Source of the DNA: Antedon mediterranea
Lineage: Eukaryota; Echinodermata; Crinoidea; Comatulida; Antedonidae
Length of the DNA: 64,000 nucleotides
NCBI RefSeq assembly: GCF_964355755.1
Contig: NC_092672.1
Coordinates: forward strand, 38,746,501 to 38,810,500
Direction: 5' to 3'
Shown piece after piece: positions 14,801 to 48,400 of this stretch (position 1 is its first letter; each line of letters begins with the position of its first letter). The position numbers and the translations under genes were made by a program. The notes under the pieces were generated by a model. The model did no database searches, was not told where the DNA came from, and saw nothing but the letters and a program-made list of their open reading frames with translations.

Positions 14801-15666
14801 AAGCAGAAGGAGAAAATGTCATTAAGGAAGCTGCTTAAAAGAGCAAAAAAAAAGTGAAGGGTGTGATAAAAATAATAATAATAATTTGCAATATTTGTAT
14901 ATTTATAGGAAAGGTGATTATCATCGTTACATGGCCGAGTTTACCTCTGGTACAAATAGAAAACAAGCTGCGGAAAACAGTCTTGAGGCCTACAAGGCAG
15001 CATGTGATATAGCTACTCGTGAATTAGCAGCTACACACCCCATCCGTCTTGGACTAGCACTTAACTTTTCTGTCTTTTACTATGAGATTTTGAATTCTCC
15101 TGAACGTGCTTGTAGACTGGCTAAAGCTGCATTTGATGATGCAATTTCAGATTTAGAATCTATCAAAGATGATACTTACCGAGATTCAACACTGATCATG
15201 CAACTTTTACGAGATAATTTGACATTGTGGACGGCAGATATGGAGGGTGATGTTGAGGGTAAGCTTAGAACCTAATAATGCACAAGTCAGAGTGCGTTAG
15301 AACATAATAATGCACAAGTCAGAGTGCGTTAGAACCTAATAATGCACAAGTCAGAGTGCGTTAGAACCTAATAATGCACAAGTCAGAGTGCGTTAGAACC
15401 TAATAATGCACAAGTCGGAGTGCGTTAGAACCTAATATTGCACAAGTCAGAGTGAGTTAGAACCCAATTTTTCCTTCTTGCAAATGAATTAAAATGGGAT
15501 TATTCTAGACTCCTTTACATTCACCAGTCTGCTAACAATTTATTATCACTTCTTAAAATGCAAGGTACTGTATTTCAAATTTTCAGATGCGGAAGGAGGT
15601 GAAAAAGAGGAAAAGAAAGAGCAAGTAGCACAAGAAGAAGAGAAGACACCAGCTGTGGAATCATAA
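11823..15666 (+). CDS. YWHAE: 14-3-3 protein, epsilon-type, tandem copy A
   Basis: Exons 11823-11886, 13329-13528, 14343-14449, 14909-15258 and 15587-15666 give 266 residues. 14-3-3 dimers bind phosphoserine/phosphothreonine motifs on client proteins in cytosol and nucleus. The fold is continuous: [61 protein letters not shown] and [14 protein letters not shown]. Groove residues equivalent to zeta Lys49, Arg56, Arg127 and Tyr128 are present. Epsilon type is suggested by [29 protein letters not shown] and an extended acidic tail, here rich in Glu ([11 protein letters not shown]). The start ATG has CC before it, and the 5' UTR seems uninterrupted. It shares all four intron positions and phases with copy B at 18500-25058. 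Confidence 0.97.
12591..13014 (+). repeat. 18/19-bp minisatellite, about 23 copies, 14-3-3 A intron 1
   Basis: Units of TATATTGTGTGTCTCTT(T)G alternate between 18 and 19 bp. The length mix opens several overlapping frames on both strands, and none is coding. Confidence 0.95.
15265..15462 (+). repeat. 32-bp minisatellite starting 6 bp after the 14-3-3 A exon 4 donor
   Basis: About six copies of a unit containing CTAATAATGCACAAGTCAGA begin at 15265; the donor GT is at 15259. The donor itself is not repeated. Confidence 0.9.
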
Positions 15667-33430: not shown

Positions 33431-36400
33431 ATGTTAATTAAAGAATATCGAATTCCACTGCCAATGAGCGTGGAAGAGTATAGGATAGCTCAGCTCTATA
33501 TGATACAGGTGAGAGGCAGGCATCTATAACACCTAACCCTATAACACCTAACCCTATACCACCTTTAGTTTAGCTTAGCTAAGCTCTATATGATACAGGT
33601 GAGAATCAGGTGTCTATACCACCTTATCCTATACCACCTTTATTTTAGCTTAGCTAAGCTCTATATGATACAGGTGAGAATCAGGTGTCTATACCACCTT
33701 ATCCTATACCACCTTTATTTTAGCTTAGCTAAGCTCTATATGATACAGGTGAGAATCAGGTGTCTATACCACCTTATCCTATACCACCTTTAGTTTAGCT
33801 TAGCTAAGCTCTATATGATACAGGTGAGAGGCAGGCATCTATAACACCTTATCCTATACCACCTTTATTTTAGCTTAGCTAAGCTCTATATGATACAGGT
33901 GAGAATCAGGCGTCTATAACACCTTATCCTATACCACCTTTATTTTAGCTCAGCTAAGCTCTAAATGATACAGGTGAGAATCAGGCGTCTATAACACCTT
34001 ATCCTATACCACCTTTATTTTAGCTTAGCTAAGCTCTATATGATACAGGTGAGAATCAGGCGTCTATAACACCTTATCCTATACCACCTTTAGTTTAGCT
34101 TAGCTAAGCTCTATATGATACAGGTGAGAGGCAGGCATCTATAACACCTAACCCTATAACACCTTATCCTATACCACCTTTATTTTAGCTTAGCTAAGCT
34201 CTATATGATACAGGTGAGAATCAGGCGTCTATAACACCTTATCCTATACCACCTTTATTTTGTATAAAATAAATATTCTTGTAAATTATATAACTATACT
34301 AACATATGTATATACTACTATATTTATTTATATATTTATTTATCTGAATGATCAATGTATTAAGCATTGGTGGCCTAATGCGTCCTCAAACAATGTATTA
34401 AAGCCCCATTCCCTACGTTTTTTAGATCTAATTTTAAGATCACAAACTATATTTAATGTAAAAATAATACTATATGGTCCTATTGCGATAACTTTTTTCG
34501 TCTTTAAACGGTTAAAAATGTGAAAAATAAGTCGATTCTAATAATTATAGCGGCCCGCTATAAATCCCAAAATGCATTGCGCGCGGATTGATATTTTTGT
34601 TTTTCACCTGTAATTCGCCCACTTTTCGATCGATCGTGAGGCCAAAACAAATGGAAGACTCCTAACTTTTCAGCGAAAATACCGTCCACGAGAGGTCGAT
34701 CGCCGCGAGCTACTTAGGTAGTGCATTGTTTCTCACTTTTTATCATAATTTACCATAAAACGTACATTTAAGACAAGGAATGACATGGTTTAATGTTTTT
34801 AAAGTGATATATATGTATTATTTTCCAAAAAACGTCCAAAATTGCAGGGAAGGGGTCTTTAAGCATTGGCGGCCTAATGCGTCCTCAAACAATGTATTAA
34901 GCATTGGCGGCCTAATGCGTCCTCAAACAATGTATTAAGCATTGGCGGCCTAATGCGTCCTCAAACAATGTATTAAGCATTGGCGGCCTAATGCGTCCTC
35001 AAACAATGTACTATTAAGCATTGGCGGCCTAATGCGTCCTCAAACAATGTATTAAGCATTGGCGGCCTAATGCGTCCTCAAACAATGTACTATTAAGCAT
35101 TGGCGGCCTAATGCGTCCTCAAACAATGTATTAAGCATTGGCGGCCTAATGCGTCCTCAAACAATGTATTAAGCATTGGCGGCCTAATGCGTCCTCAAAC
35201 AATGTATTAAGCATTGGCGGCCTAATGCGTCCTCAAACAATGTATTAAGCATTGGCGGCCTAATGCGTCCTCAAACAATGTATTAAGCATTGGCGGCCTA
35301 ATGCGTCATCAAACAATGTATTAAGCATTGGCGGCCTAATGCGTCCTCAAACAATGTATTAAGCATTGGCGGCCTAATGCGTCCTCAAACAATGTATTAA
35401 GCATTGGCGGCCTAATGCGTCCTCAAACAATGTATTAAGCATTGGCGGCCTAATGCGTCCTCAAACAATGTATTAAGCATTGGCGGCCTAATGCGTCCTC
35501 AAACAATGTATTAAGCATTGGCGGCCTAATGCGTCCTCAAACAATGTATTAAGCATTGGCGGCCTAATGCGTCCTCAAACAATGTATTAAGCATTGGCCT
35601 AATGCGTCCTCAAACAATTATATTTATTAATTTATCAAATGTTCTGTATATATTGTGTGTAACAATAAACTAGATGATGATATTTAGATATGTGAATAAC
35701 ATTTTTATACACATTTTTATGTTTAACGTAGTGCAAAACTTAGTGTCATCTTCTAGTATTAAGAAGACTTAAAATCGCCAGCATTAATTATGCATTAGTG
35801 CTCCTGATTGTTATTCTGTTGACTGGCAAAAAGTACCCACCATGCACAATCTCATTATCATACTAATGAGTTTTAATTTAATGAAAGATGGTTTTATAGA
35901 TTTTACTACAAGACCTACAACTGTTTTAGTAATTAAATCACCTGACGGCATAGTGGTCGATGCATTGCAGATATTTTGTATTGTAAATTGTGTATTTTTG
36001 TTTCTATGTTTAATATTATTTTGGTTCTAAACTAGTTACACACATTTGTCAGTTGTACTACTAAATCCTTAATTGCAATCTTTTCTCCTTAATGTTGGTG
36101 CTTTCTCGTGTCAACTCTATTTAGCCTCATATACATTGCACACTATCTTTCTGTGGACTCTTTGCAATCTTTTCTCCTTAATGTCGGTGCTTTCTCGTGT
36201 CAACTCTATTTTAGCCTCATACATTGCACACTATCTTTCTGTGGACTCTTTGCAATCTTTTCTCCTTAATGTCGGTGCTTTCTCTTGTCAACTCTATTTA
36301 GCCTCATATACATTGCACACTATCTTTCTGTGGACTCTTTGCAATCTTTTCTCCTTAATGTCGGTGCTTTCTCGTGTCAACTCTATTTAGCCTCATATAC

Positions 36401-39400: not shown

Positions 39401-42400
39401 ATATACCGTATAAATATACCGTATAAATATACCGTATAAATATACCGTATATATACCGTATATGAAATTCGTGCACCGTTTCCGCTGCACATACTTCGTG
39501 GGTGGGTTGTAAAAAAGTTGGCTTTCATTACCCAAAATTCATTTCGTGAGACGGAAGTATGGATTGACCTCGTGTAGTGAGGTTTTTACCTACTCAAAAT
39601 GTCGTAGCATTGCTTTCTATTTTAAATCTAATGAGCAGAAGTGGCAACGAATTTACACCGCACATACAAGCACAATCTAGAAATGTCACTATAAATAAAC
39701 TCTGTTATTCAAATTGAGTTTATATTATGCTATATTATCCTATATTGCCGTTTTAATTTCCATTTTCTATTATACAGTATTTTACCATGATTTTACATCA
39801 CGTTATTGTCGTGTAAGAACATTCGATTTATTGTAATTAAAATCTCGGTATCTCTTCTGTTGCCATGCAGTCTCCCCCCAACCTTCGCTTCCCCCCACAA
39901 TTGAATTGCAAAAATAGTGATTTGTTCGGTCCACAGTGACATTTTGATCTGTTGCTTGCTTTTACACGTGTGTTTCAACTTTCAATGCAGCAGAAAAACC
40001 AAAACAAACGCGTCGCGCTCTGTTAGTTTTTGACCTCGTGTCATGAGTCGGGTCACATTTACGGTATATTTTGAGTGCAGCAGAAACGGGGAACGAAATA
40101 TACGGTATATTTTGGAATATACCGTATAATATCCACAAACGATGGGGATATTTATGCAGTATATATACCGCAAATATATACGGTATATTTTTTATGAGAC
40201 CCATTTCTGCTGCCAAAAAATATACCGTATATAAAATATACCGTATATATACGGTATATTTTTGGCAGCAGAAACGGGGCCAATGTCATTTTGTATCTCC
40301 ATTGAGATCCAGCCACTGATACCCACAGCATTGTCATGTTGTATCTCTATTGAGATCCAGCCACTGATACCCACAGCATTGTCATTTTGTATCTCTATTG
40401 AGATCCAGCCACTGATACCCACAGCATTGTCATTTTGTATCTCTATTGAGATCCAGCCACTGATACCCACAGCATTGTCATTTTGTATCTCTATTGAGAT
40501 CCAGCCACTGATACCCACCGCATTGTCATTTTGTATCTCTATTGAGATCCAGCCACTGATACCCACAGCATTGTCATTTTGTATCTCTATTGAGATCCAG
40601 CCACTGATACCCACAGCATTGTCATTTTGTATCTCTATTGAGATCCAGCCACTGATACCCACAGCATTGTCATTTTGTATCTCCATTGAGATCCAGCCAC
40701 TGATACCCACCGCATTGTCATTTTGTATCTCTATTGAGATCCAGCCACTGATACCCACAACATTGTCATTTTGTATCTCTATTGAGATCCAGCCACTGAT
40801 ACCCACAGCATTGTCATTTTGTATCTCCATTGAGATCCAGCCACTGATACCCACAGCATTGTCATTTTGTATCTCTATTGAGATCCAGCCACTGATACCC
40901 ACAACATTGTCATTTTGTATCTCTATTGAGATCCAGCCACTGATACCCACAGCATTGTCATTTTGTATCTCCATTGAGATCCAGCCACTGATACCCACAA
41001 CATTGTCATTTTGTATCTCCATTGAGATCCAGCCACTGATACCCACAACATTGTCATTTTGTATCTCCATTGAGATCCAGCCACTGATACCCACAACATT
41101 GTCATTTTGTATCTCCATTGAGATCCAGCCACTGATACCCACAGCATTGTCATTTTGTATCTCCATTGAGATCCAGCCACTGATACCCACAGCATTGTCA
41201 TTTTGTATCTCCATTGAGATCCAGCCACTGATACCCACAACATTGTCATTTTGTATCTCCATTGAGATCCAGCCACTGATACCCACAACATTGTCATTTT
41301 GTATCTCCATTGAGATCCAGCCACTGATACCCACAGCATTGTCATTTTGTATCTCCATTGAGATCCAGCCACTGATACCCACAACATTGTCATTTTGTAT
41401 CTCCATTGAGATCCAGCCACTGATACCCACAGCATTGTCATTTTGTATCTCCATTGAGATCCAGCCACTGATACCCACAGCATTGTCATTTTGTATCTCC
41501 ATTGAGATCCAGCCACTGATACCCACAGCATTGTCATTTTGTATCTCTATTGAGATCCAGCCACTGATACCCACAACATTGTCATTTTGTATCTCCATTG
41601 AGATCCAGCCACTGATACCCACAACATTGTCATTTTGTATCTCCATTGAGATCCAGCCACTGATACCCACAACATTGTCATTTTGTATCTCCATTGAGAT
41701 CCAGCCACTGATACCCACAACATTGTCATTTTGTATCTCCATTGAGATCCAGCCACTGATACCCACAACATTGTCATTTTGTATCTCCATTGAGATCCAG
41801 CCACTGATACCCACAGCATTGTCATTTTGTATCTCCATTGAGATCCAGCCACTGATACCCACAGCATTGTCATTTTGTATCTCCATTGAGATCCAGCCAC
41901 TGATACCCACAGCATTGTCATTTTGTATCTCTATTGTGATCCAGCCACTGATACCCACAGCATTGTCATGTTGTATTTCCATTGAGATCCAGCCACTGAT
42001 ACCCACAACATTGTCATTTTCTATCTCCATTGAGATCCAGCCACTGATACCCACAACATTGTCATTTTGTATCTCCATTGAGATCCAGCCACTGATACCC
42101 ACAACATTGTCATTTTGTATCTCCATTGAGATCCAGCCACTGATACCCACAGCATTGTCATTTTGTATCTCCATTGAGATCCAGCCACTGATACCCACAG
42201 CATTGTCATTTTGTATCTCCATTGAGATCCAGCCACTGATACCCACAGCATTGTCATTTTGTATCTCTATTGAGATCCAGCCACTGATACCCACAGCATT
42301 GTCATTTTGTATCTCCATTGAGATCCAGCCACTGATACCCACAACATTGTCATTTTTTCAGTAATTTGCCTTTGGATTAATGAATCAATACTTTTATACT

Positions 42401-45400
42401 TTCAGAAAAAAAGCTTGGAAGAGAGTAAAGGAGCTGGCAGTGGTGTAGAAATAATAGTAAATGAACCTTATAAAAAGGATGACGGATGCCAAGGACAGTA
42501 TACACACAAAGTATACCATATTGGCAACCATTTACCTGGTAAAGTATGATGCTACTTTGTGTCAAGAATTATTCATAATTCAGGAATAATCAACAACTTA
42601 TATCTGCCAGCTGTTTCCAGCAATTAATTAGCCTAGACCTAGGTAGTGCTGTGTTTGATATGATGATTTGTCCCTGGTTCAAGTCTTACAGCATGCAGAA
42701 TTTGTTTATATGTTTTTTTTAATGGAGGGTTATGTTAATGTTTAGGATTAGAAAGCTATGGAGTTGTTTGATGAGACAGGATTAACAATGCTTATTTAAT
42801 CACTTACTTATGTTTATAAATTATTTTATCATTATAATATCACATAGATCCAAGCAATCAAGATCAGTCTCATTCAAATTAAAATGTTCTGAAACATGCT
42901 TTATTTCCAAAATGAAATGATGGTTTACCTTCTATTCTGACAGGTTGCTGTAAAAAAAAAAATATTATTGGTGTGAAAATTTCCACTTTCTATACTGTAG
43001 ATATTATAGATACTAGTATTAATAGCTAATACGGTTAACAATGTACTTGTTTACCACATTTATTTTTAATTAAAGTATGTGCAAATAAGACAACTTCTGA
43101 TTGCCTTTTAGGTTGGTTTCGTGCAATTTTACCTAAATCAGCATTGCGTGTGGAGGAAGAGGCATGGAATGCGTATCCTTACACAAAAACCCGCTTTACT
43201 TGTCCATTTGTAGAAAAGTTTTTCATTGAGGTTGAGACATATTACTTACCTGATAATGGAAACCAAGAAAATGTATTCAAACTATCATCCTCAGAATTGA
43301 AAACCAGAATTTTAGGTATCAAATTATTTCATTTATACAATGTTATGCTATGATAGAATTTTAAAGTCAAAATATTATATAAATCTTATATTAAAAATTA
43401 ATAAAACAATGTTCTTTATTATTCTGATAAAACTTTTATCATTTTTTATTTTAGATAAAATTGATGTTGCCCGTGATCCTGTACCAAGTGCAGATTATAA
43501 AAAAGAGGAAGACCCTAACATATTTGTCTCATCTAAGACAGGCAGGGGGCCTCTACCAGAAAATTGGCTGGGAATTTCTGGGCAGAAAGACGGTGCTGAA
43601 CAGGGTCTACCAGATGTTATGTGTGCCTATAAACTCTGTAAAGTTGAGTTCAGATATTGGGGAATGCAGAATAGGATTGAGAAATTTATACATGATATAG
43701 GTATTTATATCTCTACACATTTTATTTTTAAAGTATTTATATATGATATAGGTATTAACATCTCTACACATTTAATTTTGTATTGTTTGCATGGTCAAAC
43801 CACCCACACCTTGTCAAGCATTACAATGTTAATGGTACTATGGCCGTAAGTCACCAGTATGGTTGGTAAGGTTTCAATCTGACCACTTTTTTTACATAGA
43901 CCTTTGATAACCCTATGGCTTGAACAGAGATTGTTCCCTTTTCTTGTGAAAACCGCACCACTTTGTTTCTACATCACTGTATAAGTAGTAGTTGGTATAA
44001 CAACCAAAGCTTCAAGACCTCAATAGTTTATACCCTACTGTATATACCCTTTAAACAAATCTATAAATCTAACACATCTTGCATTCCTAGAGATAGATGA
44101 TGAAATAATAGTGACTGTCTTTTAGGCCTTAGAAAAGTAATGCTGCATGCTCACAGACAAGCATGGTGTTGGCAAGATGAATATTACGGACTCACTATCG
44201 AAGACATCCGTGAACTAGAAGAAAAAGCGGCACAACAACTTGCAGAAAAGATGTCTACAGCTCATGACGACGATGAAAACAGTTCAACGGAGAAAGATAC
44301 ACTGAATCATTCAAATTTTAATCGCAGCGCATACAGTAGATCAACAGGCAGTGAGAAACGCCTGCGAGAAACACGATTAGAGTCGTACAGTCATAGTTTG
44401 GAATCCGACGAAAATGAGGAAGTAAAAATTGAGAATGGCAAATTTAAAAGAAAATCTTCACGCCGGAAATCTTCTACATCAGGTAACAAGGAATTAATTT
44501 TATGTTTCTGTTTCAGTTTTAGTTTCAATTTATTTACCATTTCAAATACTGTACATAAATGATAAACAACAAATGCTGGTATGGATAACCATTAAGATTA
44601 AAGCTTGTTTACAGGTTACCCATTAATGCAGTACAATACAAACAACATGAAAACAGGTGTTATACATAACAAGACATGTGAAACCTTTAACTATGTCAAC
44701 ACTTGTGTTGCCAACCCGTTTAACTAAATGATATATTTTATGAAAACAGGACACAGGTGTAATACATAAACAAGACATGTGAAACCTTTAACTATGTCAA
44801 CACTTGTGTTGCCAACCCGTTTAACTAAATGATATATTTTACACAAATGGGCAAATTAGATTATATTTCTTTTTAATTATAAAATAATAATTTTATAGTG
44901 AAATTAAATTAAATTCATTTTATTGCAAGATACTGATCAAAAATGATTTGTTTGATTTTGTAGAATCTACCAAGAACCAAATGTTAGCACAATGGCGAAT
45001 GGACAGTCTTCAGGCTGACTCAGACACATCGGATGAAGAGTTTTTTGATGCTCAAGGTACAGGTATTACTGAAATCCAATAATAATCATAAATTTAACAA
45101 ATTCAATTATTTTATCAACATTCAACAACAAAACATTAACACATCTTTTCAGAGGAAATGGATGAGGTGCTAGAAGAGTTGTCTCACTGGGGAACAGCCA
45201 ACAATCTTATGATGACTGAAGGTAGGTAGGCCTAATACCCTTCAGGCATTGTTGCTCATTGTATATGATGACTGAAGGTAGGTAGGCCTAATACCCTTGA
45301 GGCATCGTTTCTCATTGTATGTGATGACTGAAGGTAGGTAGGCCTAATACCCTTGAGGCATCGTTTCTCATTGTATATGATGACTGAAGGTAGGTAGGCC

Positions 45401-48400
45401 TAATACCCTTGAGGCATCGTTTCTCATTGCATATGATGACTGAAGGTAGGTAGGCCTAATACCCTTGAGGCATCGTTTCTCATTGTATATGATGACTGAA
45501 GGTAGGTAGGCCTAATACCCTTGAGGCATCGTTTCTCAGGGCCTGTTTCTATAGAGCAGAGAATACGGTTTTGAATACCGTTCTTTTCAAGAATCGTTTT
45601 TTCTTGCCAGCAGAAATGGGTCCCCACAAAAAACCAAAAAAAAGAACCGATCTTAAAAACGGTTTCAAAAACCCCAATTGATTGCGGTCTCGATCACAAA
45701 GAACCGTTCTGAAACCGGTTTCCGCGGAGCAATTTTTAGCTGCAACACAATCGCGGTCTCAATTTGACCCCAAAAACTGAACTCTGCAGTCTGCTGCACT
45801 GGGATGATTGCGGTCATCTCGCAGTCAAACTCGCGCGATAGGACCTAGGCCTTAGTCATTTTTATTTCTCTAGATAGTGAGTATTTTATTTAACTAAAAA
45901 ATGTTGACCGATGCCATTACGAGGTTCGTAAAAAATATGTGAAGGAAAGAAGATGAGGGGACTTGTCGGGAGTCGGAAGAAAGACTCACGTATAGGCCTA
46001 CATGTTTTTAAGAATATTGTAAAGCGTGTGAAAAATAGACGAGTTCAACTTGACAATATCAGAGGGTGCGACGTACCTATACTTTAACCAAGGACCACAA
46101 TAACGTTTCAGGAAATAATTCCTCCTTCTATGATGAAATGGATGCTATTTCTTGGGGATCGCGCTATGCGAAAAAAAGTAAACATGACCTCGATCAAATC
46201 GCGCTTCCGCTTAACGAACTGCATTGTGGTGTATATAATGACGTCATTCATAACGAACGCACATGGACGGAACCGGTTTTATTGGAGTAAAAATTGAGCT
46301 GCAACGCGATCTTTATTTATAAACAACAGCCGAAACCGGTTTCCAAAAAACCGTTCTTTTTTTATTTTTCAATAGAAACAGGCCCTCATTGTATGTGATG
46401 ACTGAAGGTAGGTAGGCCTAATACCCTTGAGGCATCGTTTCTCATTGTATGGGATGACTGAAGGTAGGTAGGCCTAATACCCTTCAGGCATTGTTGCTCA
46501 TTGTATATGATGACTGAAGGTAGGTAGGCCTAATACCCTTGAGGCATCATTTCTCATTGTATGGGATGACTGAAGGTAGGTAGGCCTAATACCCTTGAGG
46601 CATCGTTTCTCATTGTATAAGATGACTGAAGGTAGGTAGGCCAATACCCTTCAGGAATTGTTTCTCATTGTATGTGATTTGATTATAAAAAATAATTATT
46701 TTTTTATTTTATAAATGAAATTAAAGATGAATTTTCCCCCTGAAAAAAACCATTTTTTGTTGTTGAATATGCCATTTTATTGTCACATAATAGTTATACA
46801 CTTGGAACAAAAATTGAATCGAAAAAACATTTATTTACCTGAAAAAACTGTAATTTAAAGCAAAAAATATTAAAATTGGCTGCCAGCCAATGGGTTTTTT
46901 ATATCATTTTATATATCACAGAAGTAATTAACATTTATTAAAACTACAAATAAATGTTTTTATTAAATTTGGATACCTTAGATCATGATGAATTTTGTGA
47001 TACTGGTGACCATTCAGATGAGAGTTCAGCCTTCATAAATGACCCCACATCACCACCGTTGCTGACCCCTTCTACCAGTGTTCTATTTATCATCCTTCAT
47101 GGTGGAAACATTCTGGATGGAGTTCAGGAGTTCTTTGCCAAACAAAGCGATATAAACACCTTCAAAGCGTCGTTTGACGCCGTCATACGAGCACATTTTC
47201 CCGTTGCTGTTGATCATGTAGCAATGCGTTGGGTTGCTTGTCCATCTATTTGTTCTGATGCAGTTTCACTTCTCTCTGGGTATGTATACTTAAACACCTA
47301 ATAGAGTTTTAGGTTTTATTTACAAAAGTTCTGTTTTATTGAGTCACTCAGCAGTTCTTGTATTGGCCTTTTCAACAGAAGATATGTTCGTTAATTATAT
47401 TCTTTTGTCATTATTTAATTCTGTTTTTATATTTATTGAGAGAGAAAGCTATGAACACTGTAATTTCCAAATCTATGGATGAATAAAGCGATGTATATTT
47501 CTATGCATACCATTATTATTGTTTATTTTATGTTTTGTATAATAAAGTTTCAAGTTCATGGCATCTCCTTAAACTGAGTTTTAAAATGTGTTTTAATGAA
47601 TTACAAAATAAACTAACTTACTAACTTTGTTTGTGTTAATTATGTTGCAGTCTAAATCCATATAATGTGAGTGCACGTAAATCAGGTGAGAGTGGAGGAG
47701 GTTCAGGGGTTGTAGCTGATTTTATCCCTATTGGTGCCCTGCCGCTATTGGTCACTGGCTGTCCTGAGTATAACGGTCATGTTAACACGGTCATCAACAA
47801 AGCAAATGCAGTTTATCAAGAGTTTACTAAATCTCCAGAAGGACAAGGATTTAAGGGACAGGTAGAAATGTTTTTGCTATATTTTTATTAAAAATGTATG
47901 TAATTTTCCATTTTTCTATTACCGTATACAGTATTTGCTAAATTGATTAATTCATAATAATTTTGGTTCAGAATCAAAAAAGTATGTTTGGTTTCACAGA
48001 TTGAATAACCCTCCTGTTGGCGAATTTCTTTTTGCTGTTGGTTGGGTTTGAAAATAAAATAAAATAAAAACAAGAGCATTGTTTTCTATATTTAGGTATG
48101 TTTAATTGGAGACAGTGTTGGCAGCATTCTTGGGTATGATGCACTATGTCGAGGCATTTCAACGTCAAACACTCACGGAAGTCAAGCCAGCATTGACGAA
48201 TCAGATGCCTTAACAATTAACTTCCCGTCACCTTCCCCTCATTCGTTGTCAATCACTAATGACAATTGCAATAATCAAAGCTTTACCTGTGCAAGTGAAT
48301 TCAGATCAGAGAGACCTATACTTCGCCGAAAAAGTGAGACAACTGCTCCCTCTAGAATGTCGTATAGTAAACGTTTCTCAAATCCATGTGTTTTGAAAGA

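Follow-up and report, generated by a model that had tools for sequence, protein, structure and literature searches.

Multiple splice donors provided by a minisatellite are known from the human gene IFI6 (G1P3, 6-16), as far as the passage of PMC4526556 that cites Turri 1995 describes it. According to that passage the minisatellite lies at an exon end and every unit contains a 5' splice site, giving an exon followed by a row of donors. The array at exon 7 of PITPNM in the crinoid Antedon mediterranea shows the same arrangement. Usage in mRNAs is mentioned in the same passage for the downstream IFI6 units, whereas the later PITPNM donors are candidate splice sites. IFI6 is a direct precedent and the PITPNM array belongs to the same kind. 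The IFI6 unit has a length of 12 bp and its later donors consequently stay in frame. In contrast, the PITPNM exon 7 unit measures 56 bp and its later donors lead to an immediate stop.

Two further systems are related. Tandem repeats at exon-intron boundaries alter splicing in human duplicated genes (PMC2812944). As here, minisatellites sit on the boundary and change the gene structure; however, those repeats are recent, belong to primate segmental duplications and can form novel introns, while in our case conserved genes are affected and an existing intron was lengthened. Moreover, tandem duplication of AGGT segments leads to intron gain in the Rogers model (PMC4974935), which likewise copies a segment with splice signals in tandem but differs in that no new intron arose here and the acceptor lies outside the array. 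Distinct from these cases are the stop directly behind the later donors and the presence of such arrays in several conserved genes within a single animal genome.

The PITPNM gene and its exon 7

The window, i.e. the whole stretch of DNA analysed, comprises 64,000 nt of contig NC_092672.1. The gene was recognised as PITPNM/RdgB by Pfam matches and an exon model; it lies on the + strand and starts at 33431. The Pfam matches follow the order IP_trans, DDHD, PITM beta-sandwich and LNS2, and an FFAT-like motif (EEFFDA) is found at the end of exon 6. The gene thus has the domain order of PITPNM/RdgB, namely PITP (IP_trans), FFAT-like motif, DDHD and LNS2. The model consists of 18 exons without in-frame stops, and 17 of 17 introns are GT-AG and phase-matched. 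The features relevant for exon 7 are as follows.

45153..45221, +, PITPNM exon 7; 69 bp, both ends in phase 1, directly after the FFAT-like motif of exon 6 (exon model, with IP_trans, DDHD and LNS2 matches in flanking exons)
45222..45227, +, modelled exon 7 donor AAG|GTAGGT (exon model, U1 duplex energy)
46982..47279, +, PITPNM exon 8, whose acceptor closes intron 7 (exon model)

The first-pass annotation had placed the exon 7 donor at 45222 (45221|45222), and the 18-exon model with its open frame, GT-AG introns and matching phases argues for this position. By U1 duplex energy it ranks third among the 17 modelled PITPNM donors. Intron 7 covers 45222-46981, 83% of which is made up by array and transposon.

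Anatomy of the exon 7 array

Exon 7 ends with GACTGAAG|GTAGGTAGG. The sequence GATGACTGAAG followed by GTAGG occurs 11 times, with a distance of 56 bp within each of two halves that flank a transposon. Positions obtained by motif search agree with tandem repeats detected by TRF, confirming the 56-bp donor-carrying array with 6 + 5 copies that had been proposed from inspection of the sequence.

45208..45538, +, first half of the exon 7 minisatellite; TRF 56 bp x 5.9, score 627, six donor copies
45211, 45267, 45323, 45379, 45435, 45491, +, first six copies of GATGACTGAAG (motif search)
46386..46678, +, second half of the exon 7 minisatellite; TRF (from 46385) 56 bp x 5.3, score 497, five donor copies
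46397, 46453, 46509, 46565, 46621, +, last five copies of GATGACTGAAG (motif search)

Both TRF scores (627 and 497) far exceed chance. The first unit overlaps the 3' end of exon 7. It had been assumed that the last 11 bases of the exon are repeated. At least 11 are indeed copied, but the segment reaches 14 bases (TATGATGACTGAAG) and is not always 11. AAG|GTAGGT is intact in 11 of 11 units. The first unit has variants that are rare in interior units. The variant set CTTCAGGCATTGTTGC is common to units 1 and 8, most interior units having another (CTTGAGGCATCGTTTC). Divergence is highest in the last unit, which has also lost 1 bp; the overall pattern is as in arrays with internal turnover.

When 351 bp of exon 7 and array were searched against the 354-Mb assembly, a single locus was returned (E<=0.001). 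As the unit is present at one locus only, the array was born locally, and a dispersed or mobile minisatellite is ruled out. The same search bears out that the exon 7 array is unrelated to the array at exon 1 (see below).

The transposon inside the array

The two halves are separated by the following element.

~45539..46385, +, non-autonomous TIR transposon (GGGCCTGTTTCTAT...), ~847 bp, with TCA target-site duplication, PIF/Harbinger-like

The terminal sequence and the length of the duplication point to a PIF/Harbinger-like family. The family has a high copy number: in the genome 40 copies were scored, including the element itself, with 96-100% identity, and 3-bp duplications are present at most sampled copies. 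The high identity and these duplications indicate a young non-autonomous element that inserted into a pre-existing array.

Predicted consequence of the later donors

Translation across a splice from any later donor yields ...NLMMTE-G-R-stop. Longer in-frame isoforms are thus not the case, and the immediate stop predicted in the first-pass annotation is correct. Based on summed exon lengths, the product would have ~395 residues, retaining the PITP domain and the FFAT motif and losing the rest. The ten spare donors would cause at most leaky splicing to transcripts ending in Glu-Gly-Arg-stop, which may encode a ~395-aa PITP+FFAT fragment or be targets of NMD.

Donor-spanning arrays elsewhere in gene, window and genome

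A second array spans the donor of the first coding exon of PITPNM, supporting the claim of two independent donor-spanning arrays (exons 1 and 7) within one gene.

33431..33508, +, PITPNM coding exon 1, donor CAG|GTGAGA (exon model); its last ~23 bp and the donor seed the exon 1 array
33485..34261, +, array spanning the exon 1 donor; unit of 75 bp, ATACAG|GTGAGA present 10 times with the authentic donor counted (TRF)

In the units of the exon 1 array an acceptor-like tract (CCACCTTTATTTTAG) lies ahead of the ~23 bp and the donor, and each unit could hence in principle be a micro-exon. Another array of the gene (48-bp unit, 43 copies, 40284-42356) stops 50 bp before the acceptor of exon 2. The 14-3-3 gene in the window had also been listed as a case. 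Its array (15258-15468) starts 6 bp after a real-looking donor, and the next coding exon, ending in a stop, was found downstream of it. This part of the claim holds, but the unit does not contain that donor.

Scanning the genome for three closely spaced CAGGTRAGT motifs revealed six arrays, four of which are located at exon ends or probable exon ends.

C1:17.776 Mb (17775400-17777900), DHX8 array; 37-bp unit, 22 copies, covers the last 29 exon bases
C3:18.140 Mb, coiled-coil exon array; 17-bp unit, 23 copies, covers the exon end
C6:30.480 and 30.503 Mb, arrays of two paralogues; 53-bp unit covers end and donor of a probable first exon with signal peptide

For the remaining two (C1:40.90 and C4:25.56 Mb) no clear exon was seen. 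The DHX8 exon was identified by a match to the solved structure of DHX8 (E=2e-19), and the exon after the array reads GDILMFLTGQEEID. DHX8 is a splicing helicase. Its intron of about 880 bp is filled nearly completely by the 37-bp array spanning its own donor; the array also shows a higher-order pattern. The top solved-structure match of the coiled-coil exon is rabaptin-5, which was rejected as not significant (E=0.38). In the DHX8, coiled-coil and signal-peptide cases it is again the first copy that holds the donor. Donor-spanning arrays recur in this genome, at DHX8 and the coiled-coil exon and probably at the two signal-peptide exons, which bears out the phenomenon beyond PITPNM.

Do donors attract arrays?

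The first-pass annotation had speculated on a special mechanism at exon-intron junctions and called for a genome-wide test of enrichment. This was performed in reduced form with the triplets described above. CAGGTRAGT occurs 4462 times in the genome and its backward control 3232 times. Arrays were found for 6/4462 donor motifs vs 4/3232 backward motifs, i.e. no excess (Fisher P=1). Raw counts of MAGGTRAGT (180 vs 1464 for the backward control) are dominated by large single arrays and were therefore replaced by array counts. Moreover, ~75 other non-redundant donors from kinesin, myosin, P-type ATPase and PITP exons (positions approximate, simple consensus rule) revealed 0 spanning arrays where 0.6-1.4 are expected. 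With the motif test at P=1 and 0 arrays at these ~75 donors, the special mechanism is unsupported. A region of 5.5 Mb (C3:19.6-25.1 Mb) contains no fewer than 15 myosin head exons that closely resemble each other, which suggests a large myosin gene expansion.

The excess of CAGGTRAGT over the backward motif implies that ~28% of its occurrences are real donors. Among the independent CAGGTRAGT arrays, 3/5 are at real or probable exon ends vs about 28% expected (P=0.13), by which a modest donor excess is possible. Expressed as rate, the estimated frequency of arrays at real donors is 2.6 times that elsewhere (3/1230 vs 6/6464, P=0.16). These values weakly hint at a possible donor excess of 2-3 fold.

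Minisatellite sequence makes up 17% of the window and 9% of 97 kb sampled from myosin loci. Within PITPNM two donor captures are observed vs 0.38 expected (edge-unit, Poisson P=0.057) in a window chosen for having them. Under TRF bounds the strict arrays in PITPNM include one donor vs a mean of 3.2 under random placement. The comparison with an acceptor motif (TTTTTNCAGG) yielded one array genome-wide, away from exon starts, too few to conclude. The GC skew of the units varies from -0.21 to +0.47 without consistent sign, and the proposed R-loop-associated expansion is thus disfavoured.

Probable origin and possible role of the arrays

Probably the arrays result from ordinary local tandem duplication, which is tolerated at donors as the first copy still splices correctly. 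At exon 7 one small tandem duplication of the last ~14 exon bases and ~42 intron bases may have been the first step. The tetranucleotide TATG occurs in TATGATGACTG at the end of the exon as well as in TATGTGATTTG just past the array, and could have seeded this duplication, although 4 bp could be chance. The copy would then have been multiplied by unequal exchange or slippage, and a recently active transposon would later have entered the grown array. Copy 1 retains the intact exon and donor and everything downstream becomes intron, hence a duplication across a donor would be tolerated as nearly neutral. On this reading, what looks like a link to donors mostly reflects chance capture in a minisatellite-dense genome, combined with a putative selective filter that would let donor-spanning duplications survive. 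Such a filter, not a generator of arrays, would predict that acceptor-spanning arrays are scarcer. Among the 17 PITPNM donors, the two with arrays come joint first and third by U1 pairing energy, a post hoc remark that is consistent with the filter. Counting against local duplication with tolerance are the small sampling, the 3/5 arrays at real or probable exon ends, the 2.6-fold point estimate and also the high U1 ranks of these two donors; some donor bias is possible.

An unlikely alternative is expansion directed by the donor itself, in which transcribed exon-intron junctions would undergo R-loop formation, replication slippage or repair and thereby gain arrays at their 5' splice sites. It would account for the two PITPNM arrays together with those of DHX8, the coiled-coil exon and the two paralogous signal-peptide exons, for the 14-3-3 array adjoining a donor, for the 2.6-fold estimate and for the single acceptor-like-motif array being located away from an exon start. 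However, arrays of the donor motif are no commoner than those of the backward motif, the ~75 sampled donors carry none, the GC skew is mixed in sign, and the units have no obvious sequence in common besides the donor.

Somewhat less credible still is a regulatory function, by which a ladder of decoy donors leads to the premature stop and thereby sets the dose of PITPNM or makes a short PITP+FFAT protein. The conservation of GACTGAAG|GTAGGTAGG at 11/11 donors, the good pairing of the exon 7 donor with U1 and the identical short ending produced from every later donor would fit, as would the use of the minisatellite donors of human IFI6 in transcripts, as stated in the passage of PMC4526556 citing Turri 1995. 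On the other hand, in a circular window test covering four arrays, with the 17-bp unit uninformative, 12.5% of the windows match the conservation of the donor copies at exon 7 (fraction 0.125). The fractions are 0.52 and 0.54 in the exon 1 and DHX8 arrays; none is significant, and selection preserving the donor copies was rejected. Furthermore, the transposon insertion shows that the region tolerates disruption.

Similarly doubtful is the far-reaching idea that 5' splice sites of this genome, strong ones especially, are hotspots of tandem expansion. Introns would then grow time and again as arrays of their own donor, and the ladders would act as leaky brakes by which copy number could tune gene output.

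Creation of intron 7 by the array, i.e. gain by tandem duplication, is disfavoured and very improbable: AGGT is present in the unit and tandem duplication is a known intron route (PMC4974935), but the Rogers model derives both splice sites from the duplicated segment, whereas the acceptor of intron 7 (exon 8 from 46982) lies outside the array with no repeat copy there, the array having lengthened an already existing intron.

Biological meaning

If an enrichment at donors were true for the whole genome, it would indicate a mutational mechanism at exon-intron junctions, for which the present evidence falls short. Local duplication with tolerance provides a simple route of intron lengthening, in which a duplication across the donor is harmless while the first copy is used. 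Several exon ends of one genome, in conserved genes including DHX8, are trailed by ~10 to 20 copies of their own donor and put the spliceosome's choice among near-identical donors to a natural test.
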